Below, one piece after another: positions 32,649 through 33,332 of a stretch of 64,000 bases of DNA (within the stretch, counting starts at the first letter, position 1; every line of letters starts with the position of its first letter). The notes beneath the pieces were generated by a model that saw only the letters and a program-made list of their open reading frames with translations, did no database searches and was not told where the DNA came from. This DNA is from Melioribacteraceae bacterium. Its GTDB lineage: Bacteria; Bacteroidota; Ignavibacteria; Ignavibacteriales; Melioribacteraceae. Made by a program: the position numbers and the translations under genes. Location of the stretch: contig WGCV01000044.1 of NCBI GenBank assembly GCA_015493615.1, forward strand, positions 1 to 64,000. The letters run 5' to 3'.

Positions 32649-32723
32649 GGGGTCGTAGTTCAGTTTGGTTAGAACGTCGGCCTGTCACGCCGAAGGTCGC
32701 GAGTTCGAGTCTCGTCGGCCCCG
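32649..32723 (+). tRNA. tRNA-Asp (anticodon GTC)
   Basis: This 75-nt gene folds into a complete cloverleaf. Acceptor GGGGTCG pairs with CGGCCCC, with one T-G pair and discriminator G. The D arm is GTTCAGTTTGGTTAGAAC, the anticodon arm TCGGC-CTGTCAC-GCCGA with anticodon GTC, the variable loop AGGTC and the T arm GCGAG-TTCGAGT-CTCGT. CCA is not encoded. It is followed directly by a terminator. Two altered copies of its 3' third lie downstream at 32809-32854 and 33181-33227. Confidence 0.97.
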
Positions 32724-32724
32724 C

Positions 32725-32758
32725 TAAAAAGCCGGAAATTATTTTTTCGGCTTTTTTA
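32725..32758 (+). terminator. Terminator of tRNA-Asp
   Basis: AAAAAGCCG pairs with CGGCTTTTT across a 13-nt loop and ends in a T-run. The same sequence context (CTAAAAAGCCGG ... CCGGCTTTTTTAGTTTTAAAAT) recurs after the tRNA fragment at 33181-33227, so tRNA 3' end and terminator were copied together. Confidence 0.9.
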
Positions 32759-32808
32759 GTTTTAAAATATCTTTGATTTTTTTATTATTAATAATCTTTG
32801 ACTTTTTA

Positions 32809-32854
32809 GCCGAAGGTCGTCCCGAATGATTTCGGGAAGTCTCGTCGGCCCCCG
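32809..32854 (+). repeat. tRNA-Asp 3'-end fragment A (pseudo-tRNA remnant)
   Basis: GCCGAAGGTC and GTCTCGTCGGCC match the 3' side of the anticodon stem, variable loop, T arm and acceptor of tRNA-Asp. The centre of the T arm is replaced by a small hairpin, TCCCGAATGATTTCGGGA. Fragment B at 33181 has the same change, so both derive from one another and not independently from the tRNA. In the frame used by the GIY-YIG gene the fragment reads AEGRPE and stop, preceded by a possible remnant of a GIY-YIG C-terminus. A hairpin with a T-run (32861-32898) follows. Confidence 0.8.
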
Positions 32855-32860
32855 CAAAAT

Positions 32861-32898
32861 AAAAAAGCCTTACAGTTTACTGTGAGGCTTTTTTTTGT
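32861..32898 (+). terminator. Terminator-like hairpin after tRNA fragment A
   Basis: AAAAAAGCCT pairs with AGGCTTTTTT, with an inner ACAG / CTGT pair and a TTTA loop, followed by a T-run. It lies 43 bp before the GIY-YIG ATG and would shield that gene from upstream transcription. Confidence 0.75.
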
Positions 32899-32940
32899 TT
32901 TAAGTGATTATTTTGAGAAAACTAATTTTTGAGGATTTTC

Positions 32941-33201
32941 ATGTGGTTTACCTATATTCTTTATTCAAACAAAATCAATAAATATTATGTCGGTTACACT
33001 TCTGATTTAGAACTGAGAATTCTGCGCCATAATTCCGGTTGGGGGAAATACTCGAGCAGAGGAACTCCCTGGAAATTAGTTTATTTTGAAAAATTTGCAT
33101 CTAAATCTGAAGCAATTAAACGTGAAAATCAAATCAAGAAAAAGAAAAGTCGAAAATATATTGAAAAGCTAATTTCTTTTGCCGAAGGTCGTCCCGAATG
33201 A
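32941..33201 (+). CDS. GIY-YIG family nuclease-like protein with tRNA-derived C-terminus
   Basis: This 86-residue protein is a single GIY-YIG domain. TYILYS and YYVGYTSDLELRILRHN give the two motif tyrosines and the catalytic Arg, and a Lys-rich tail EAIKRENQIKKKKSRKY follows. It is the stand-alone type related to the UvrC nuclease domain. The ATG at 32941 is chosen over a TTG four codons upstream because GAGGA lies 5 bases before it. The last six codons and the stop (AEGRPE*) are made by the 3'-end fragment of tRNA-Asp at 33181-33227. Another fragment lies 5' of the gene and a decayed GIY-YIG start lies 3' of it, so gene and tRNA fragment appear to form one repeating unit. Biological function is unknown. 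Confidence 0.85.
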   Translation: MWFTYILYSNKINKYYVGYTSDLELRILRHNSGWGKYSSRGTPWKLVYFEKFASKSEAIKRENQIKKKKSRKYIEKLISFAEGRPE

Positions 33202-33227
33202 TTTCGGGAAGTCTCGTCGGCCCCGCT
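33181..33227 (+). repeat. tRNA-Asp 3'-end fragment B, overlapping the GIY-YIG stop codon
   Basis: This is the same altered tRNA 3' end as fragment A, with the T-arm centre replaced by TCCCGAATGATTTCGGGA. Unlike A, it is followed by the same bases as the true tRNA (CCCCGCTAAAAAGCCGG), then by a terminator and AGTTTTAAAAT. The first 21 bases are the end of the GIY-YIG reading frame. Confidence 0.88.
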
Positions 33228-33256
33228 AAAAAGCCGGATGAAATTCCGGCTTTTTT
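33228..33256 (+). terminator. Terminator after tRNA fragment B
   Basis: AAAAAGCCGG pairs with CCGGCTTTTTT around an 8-nt loop and ends in a T-run. It is homologous to the tRNA-Asp terminator at 32725-32758 but with a different loop. Confidence 0.88.
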
Positions 33257-33283
33257 AGTTTTAAAATGGTTCTTTATATGATT

Positions 33284-33332
33284 GAGGGGAATAATATGTA
33301 GTTTACCTTCATTCTTTACTCAAACAAAATCA
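33284..33332 (+). pseudogene. Decayed second GIY-YIG gene start
   Basis: GAGG, then ATG TAG TTT ACC TTC ATT CTT TAC TCA AAC AAA ATC repeats the first dozen codons of the GIY-YIG gene at 32941 (ATG TGG TTT ACC TAT ATT CTT TAT TCA AAC AAA ATC). The second codon has become a TAG stop. Similarity ends after about 45 bp, where an unrelated dispersed repeat (33340 onward) begins. It shows that the nuclease unit was once present at least twice in tandem. Confidence 0.8.

Follow-up and report, generated by a model that had tools for sequence, protein, structure and literature searches.

We found that a tRNA-Asp gene of a Melioribacteraceae bacterium is followed by an array of its own 3′ fragments, each carrying the same hairpin, together with a small GIY-YIG nuclease gene, and that this arrangement recurs beside tRNA genes of many isotypes in several phyla. 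From sequence comparison we tentatively propose, just short of an even call, that such arrays are a widespread mobile element that needs no recombinase and spares its target: a one-domain GIY-YIG nuclease would act on a hairpin inside a partial copy of a conserved host gene (tRNA, tmRNA or, in a sister clade, protein genes such as integrase and a dTDP-glucose dehydratase-like gene), the copy would supply the homology that directs amplification and spread, and nuclease-free units would be moved in trans. The array described below may itself be one of a large group of selfish units that are bound to tRNA genes and amplify in tandem, with the nuclease acting at the hairpin and tRNA homology guiding repair, amplification and spread, a reading that we place somewhat short of an even call.

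The array lies in the 64,000-nucleotide stretch that was analysed, positions 1 to 64,000 of contig WGCV01000044.1 (GCA_015493615.1), here called the window. Its features are as follows.

32649 to 32724, forward strand: intact tRNA-Asp (gtc), called by ARAGORN and matching Rfam RF00005 at 69.6 bits
32725 to 32759, forward strand: terminator-like spacer 3′ of the tRNA, recurring after copy B
32809 to 32854, forward strand: copy A, the 3′ part of tRNA-Asp (nt 41–76) with a T-arm hairpin, read as a nuclease-free unit
32820 to 32837, forward strand: hairpin of copy A, TCCCGAATGATTTCGGGA in place of CGAGTTCG
32861 to 32898, forward strand: terminator-like hairpin 3′ of copy A, recognised from sequence
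32941 to 33201, forward strand: GIY-YIG nuclease gene with ATG start (TTG at 32929 is an alternative), PF01541 match 2.7e-18
33181 to 33227, forward strand: copy B, the 3′ part of tRNA-Asp with a T-arm hairpin
33192 to 33209, forward strand: hairpin of copy B, TCCCGAATGATTTCGGGA, containing the stop codon of the GIY-YIG gene
33228 to 33258, forward strand: flank repeated from the tRNA, terminator-like
33296 to 33332, forward strand: truncated further GIY-YIG start (ATG TAG ...), the outer end of the array, same in relatives

The initial annotation, made from the sequence alone, had described an intact tRNA-Asp followed by two copies of its 3′ part, and this stands. Both copies are tRNA-Asp nt 41–76 outside the hairpin, copy A having one additional C near its end. 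Their shared T-arm change was also seen correctly but is not purely an insert, since 8 nt of the T arm, CGAGTTCG, are swapped for a perfect 18-nt hairpin, TCCCGAATGATTTCGGGA. The last codons of the nuclease (AEGRPE) are indeed encoded by copy B, and its TGA stop falls in the copy B hairpin. The terminator and flank of the real tRNA do return after copy B (87% over 61 bp, E=1e-13), and the second GIY-YIG start beyond them is closed at once by TAG (ATG-TAG, 33296–33301), with similarity extending for about 37 nt. Similarity comparison gave no support to the suggestion that another GIY-YIG gene ends before copy A, and a gene remnant there was rejected; copy A is better read as a nuclease-free unit, of a type also found at other loci. 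Upstream of the array is pfkA, and downstream are a cupin_5 gene and then a Ham1-family gene.

Two further small GIY-YIG genes are present in the same genome (3.15 Mb, 67 contigs). The first lies 3′ of tRNA-Met, with a 3′ piece of that tRNA-Met after it. The second lies 3′ of tRNA-Ser, and after it comes a nearly full-length copy of tRNA-Ser whose T and anticodon arms contain hairpins; the T-arm hairpin TCCCGCCGGTTGGCGGGA stands in place of CGGGTTCG, the same 8 nt as in Asp. The tRNA-Ser element spans two overlapping contig ends (C42 start, C49 end); short-read assemblies thus break at arrays, and copy numbers taken from MAGs are underestimates. Two long GIY proteins of this genome have no tRNA linkage. 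Locus L011 has an IS200-like Y1 transposase ORF among short palindromes such as AACTGCTTCGCAGTT.

Relatives of the nuclease occur in 51 of 58 genomes from the genus, family and order. A tRNA gene lies within 600 bp of the GIY gene at 90 of 112 related loci (about 2% by chance), on the same strand at 89 of the 112, with a median gap of 41 bp. Loci lacking a nearby tRNA are mostly at contig ends, and two adjoin tmRNA (L081, L127); at L081 a 3′ copy of tmRNA, bearing an insert within the T loop, comes after the element. The isotypes include Asn, Ser, Asp, Pro, Met, Lys, Cys, Gly, Leu, Arg and Ala. Most GIY genes are accompanied by a partial copy of the adjacent tRNA with hairpins in the arms of the copy, in one of two layouts: intact tRNA - [GIY - 3′ copy]n (layout D) or [5′ copy - GIY]n - intact tRNA (layout U). 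Tandem arrays reach five near-identical 315-bp units at L031 and five 450-bp units at L124, and at many loci the intact tRNA is preceded by hairpinned 5′ copies, or there are repeats that lack a nuclease. The outer ends of arrays are ragged, and a fixed right-hand unit boundary was rejected because the ends are variable. The proposed unit of tRNA 3′ part, terminator and GIY-YIG gene is therefore real and recurs at many isotypes, which disposes of a single-locus oddity; its scope had been drawn too narrowly, leaving out 5′ copies, upstream layouts, tmRNA, nuclease-free units and the range of isotypes.

Scanning named genomes yielded 79 loci, 59 of them tRNA-adjacent and all of these on the same strand; contig ends account for 12 of the 20 others. 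The carriers belong to Ignavibacteriota, Calditrichota, Cloacimonadota, Fidelibacterota, Bacteroidota, Thermodesulfobacteriota, Myxococcota, Lentisphaerota and Patescibacteria groups, and some are cultured strains (Echinicola, Maribellus, Marinifilum). Contamination may affect single MAG contigs, but it is unlikely as an overall explanation, given the number of independent records. Viral GIY relatives, taken as a negative control, were near a tRNA in 1 of 24 cases; chance or a detection artefact was rejected, since neither these nor the two long GIY proteins of the window genome are tRNA-linked. At L321 (G138) the hairpin in tRNA-Ala copies resembles an anticodon arm, and ARAGORN consequently called these copies tRNA-Cys(gca); false tRNA annotations can arise from such elements.

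Integration into tRNA genes is known to duplicate tRNA ends (PMC9897764), and an integrase adjoins one of our loci (L110), as might be expected if the copies were att-site duplications at tRNA 3′ ends, left by integrative elements whose cargo nuclease was retained. Unit size and content largely refute this, and we regard it as very improbable: typical units of 300–450 bp hold only the GIY ORF, with no tyrosine or serine recombinase; the 5′ copies are regular too; and neither tandem units nor hairpins are features of att sites. Carriage as plasmid or phage cargo was rejected, the matches being distant only.

The window nuclease (about 87 aa) falls in the GIY-YIG superfamily (PF01541) and in its UPF0213-like subfamily. 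Catalytic residues Y5, Y16, R26 and E62 are invariant in alignment A1, and the AF2 model is a single GIY-YIG domain (pLDDT 89.5) with no extra DNA-binding domain. UPF0213 is closest by profile (1zg2, E=3e-10) and by fold (Foldseek rank 1, E=5.5e-4), the SLX1 profile matches at 0.01, and NCBIfam has no model for the window protein. SLX1 is a DNA structure-specific nuclease. Between the window and G004 we found dN 0.005 and dS 0.22 (dN/dS about 0.02), and in the genus with the tRNA-Pro elements dN/dS is roughly 0.1–0.2 where dS is measurable; these low values indicate that the nuclease is maintained as a protein under purifying selection.

The hairpin had been treated as a local mutation, and proves instead to be a recurrent feature across loci. 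Hairpin inserts are located at the D, anticodon, variable or T region of the copies, are usually of the form TCCCG...CGGGA, and are often clean, the remaining tRNA being fully identical (70/70 at L121). Perfect stems of at least 6 bp occur in 60 of 70 aligned copies; since 25 parent tRNAs also have such a stem, a better gauge is given by the inserted hairpins foreign to the tRNA and by how densely they occur. The density of TCCCG..CGGGA is 4.26/kb in copies against 0.018/kb in the rest of the same loci, and 51 of 69 copy regions have a stem of at least 7 bp, against a shuffle mean of none. Throughout the Asp lineage (Ignavibacteriota, Calditrichota, Cloacimonadota, Bacteroidota) the hairpin takes the place of the same 8 nt of the tRNA, and, across these phyla, the adjoining tRNA letters are those of the host's own tRNA. 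The Asp stems covary (0.235 versus 0.051 shuffled, 0/500; slides at most 0.044). Hairpin position is constant in this lineage, in the T arm, and differs among isotypes.

Covarying hairpins, isotype specificity, a same-strand layout that could be co-transcribed, and the frequent replacement of the anticodon arm would all suit a toxin-antitoxin-like or regulatory system, in which the cognate tRNA would be the target of the nuclease and the hairpinned copy, on the same transcript, an RNA decoy or control element. We think this improbable: the nearest relatives of the nuclease are either specific for DNA structure (SLX1) or of unknown function (UPF0213), many copies are only the 3′ or 5′ third of a tRNA, and nuclease-free arrays and patchy presence are not typical of such systems.

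Palindromes of the kind found in the copies are also common elsewhere. The pattern TCCCG(N3-13)CGGGA occurs 185 times in the window genome (G000), against 2 for the reversed control, and such palindromes are found in genomes without the nuclease; the hairpins thus belong to a wider palindrome class. This abundance favours a passive origin, by tandem duplication at tRNA ends followed by entry of independently mobile palindromes into useless copies, with the nuclease a passenger and ordinary recombination able to expand the arrays. Nuclease relatives are present in 247 of 395 genomes of the phylum, however, and exact hairpinned-copy signatures are restricted to nuclease-positive genomes, at 32/247 versus 0/148 (Fisher p=1.5e-7, with list membership matched by eye and related genomes non-independent). 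Hairpin density in copies is more than 200 times that elsewhere, the tRNA parts often remain perfect, and the nuclease is isotype-bound and under purifying selection, all of which make a passive origin rather unlikely in our judgement. Genome-wide, hairpin density correlates only weakly with the nuclease (Spearman rho 0.34), and simple scaling of hairpins with nuclease number was rejected.

Comparison of related genomes at the same locus, as the initial annotation had advised, found the unit present, deleted or absent, with tandem amplification. At the tRNA-Asp locus, G004 has the same array as the window, and two congeners (G001, G003) and a family member (G005) are empty. At tRNA-Pro-yajQ in one genus, five loci are complete, one retains the hairpinned copy after losing most of the nuclease gene, two sites are cleanly empty, and in two no more than a few letters of the nuclease start remain. 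Two tRNA-Asp loci of G043, 27 kb apart, share the same 19-nt hairpin and spacer, one having the nuclease and the other four nuclease-free units, which suggests spread between same-isotype loci. Homologues without tRNA-derived ends, or a locus free of gain, loss and copy-number change, had been named beforehand as evidence against an element of this kind; homologues turn out to have tRNA-derived neighbours, and all three kinds of change are seen.

Presence/absence at the same locus in relatives, as at tRNA-Pro-yajQ, is also what a homing gene would give. A free-standing homing endonuclease might cut its cognate tRNA gene at the arm that the hairpin replaces, the hairpin conferring immunity on the leftover half while the tRNA half brought by the element restores the gene. 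The constant T-arm position in the Asp lineage across phyla agrees with this, as do the partial protein-gene copies next to an intact gene that accompany a related GIY clade and the phage GIY-YIG homing enzymes known near tRNAs (SegB, PMC13096335). In homing the occupied target is altered; here the intact tRNA-Asp and tRNA-Pro are identical between occupied and empty genomes and only the extra copy is changed, so that a restored tRNA would still be cuttable. This also makes it doubtful that the nuclease cuts the tRNA gene itself, as was first suggested. Flanks vary between hosts, and flank recognition hardly explains self-protection. The nuclease is a lone catalytic domain, whereas known homing enzymes, to our knowledge, possess a separate DNA-binding region. 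We judge homing unlikely. Action on the hairpin is preferred over classical homing on three grounds: a restored, unaltered tRNA would be recut, the protein lacks a separate DNA-binding domain, and structure specificity is a trait of its nearest characterised relatives (SLX1).

The tree of 106 nuclease domains (79 columns, support limited) has 23 isotype label changes, near the minimum of 16, versus 66.6 when labels are shuffled. Layouts D and U both occur within the Leu, Pro and Ser lineages; the side of insertion therefore varies under a constant isotype. Phyla are intermixed in the Asp clade, a hint of transfer from a 79-column tree too poorly resolved to support such a claim. Against the hairpin model, hairpin position differs among isotypes, the correlation of the nuclease with hairpin density is weak, and hairpins persist in some nuclease-free genomes; isotype fidelity and patchiness could come partly from vertical descent with loss, and many of the source genomes are MAGs broken at these arrays.

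A sister GIY-YIG clade (L100, L113, L117, L120, L129, L131, L326-L346) often lies between terminal inverted repeats of 11–17 bp, such as ACCCCGTGAGATA..TATCTCACGGGGT, with ends like CCCCG or TCCCG. Its genes lie inside or beside protein genes, among them those for tyrosine integrase (between conserved motifs) and an avd-like four-helix-bundle protein. At L330 and L333 the GIY gene is upstream of an intact dTDP-glucose dehydratase-like gene and is preceded by a copy of the first ~12 codons of that gene, giving the layout partial copy - GIY - intact gene on a protein gene. The clade supports a link between such nucleases and TCCCG-type palindromes.

The proposed cycle would begin with the UPF0213/SLX1-related nuclease nicking or cutting the hairpin, or its cruciform, in the copy and not in the intact tRNA. 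The broken ends, carrying tRNA sequence, would be led by homology into repair at a tRNA gene of the same isotype; such repair could expand the array and correct the copies to the host's own tRNA sequence. By this route a unit might invade an unoccupied tRNA locus of matching isotype, the functional tRNA staying intact, while nuclease-free units would be moved in trans and spread between species would use the same tRNA homology. If so, many Bacteroidota and members of several other phyla would have, hidden at their tRNA genes, a very small selfish element that multiplies next to an essential gene, leaves that gene unbroken, and is mobile without integrase or transposase. Small GIY-YIG genes that otherwise lack an explanation would gain a role, one kind of tRNA misannotation and of assembly break would be accounted for, and the compact pairing of nuclease and hairpin would lend itself to direct tests of specificity.

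We found no description of this arrangement in the open-access papers searched; the arrays look like an undescribed kind of selfish DNA, a view that rests on that search and is revisable. Homing gene, integrative element, insertion sequence and REP/RAYT each fail at least one tested feature; as to insertion sequences and transposons, no transposase was found in the tRNA-type units. The 178-bp repeats of E. coli tyrT stand in tandem after a tRNA, each starting with the tRNA 3′ end and enclosing a small ORF; unlike the GIY units, they have an ORF that is not a nuclease, are at one locus, and have no hairpin replacement. REP/RAYT and the Rickettsia palindromic elements are dispersed short palindromes, some tied to a nuclease-type enzyme. 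The present units differ from REP/RAYT in having GIY-YIG in place of a Y1 transposase, and hairpins inside tRNA copies at recurrent arms. UPF0213/SLX1 nucleases are nearest by profile and fold, UPF0213 sharing the single catalytic domain, and we know of none that is tRNA-linked, tandem or mobile. Fragments of tRNA have elsewhere been attributed to integrative elements (PMC9897764), and the att duplications of ICEs, IMEs and prophages likewise place a partial tRNA copy at the far side of the insert and keep the tRNA intact; the units described here differ in having no integrase, a size of 300–450 bp or less, both 3′ and 5′ copies, hairpins and tandem arrays. Closest in behaviour is SegB of T-even phages, a free-standing GIY-YIG endonuclease required for tandem amplification of tRNA-containing segments (PMC13096335), with which our system shares a GIY-YIG nuclease gene beside tRNA genes and tandem amplification by recombination. 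Kinship with the SegB lineage is distant, at the GIY-YIG level only; a tblastn search of phage with the window protein matched 21 records, with no T-even phage among the 20 listed. Unlike SegB, which is a phage protein, nucleases of the window type are chromosomal, isotype-bound and one-domain, and are accompanied by hairpinned partial tRNA copies.
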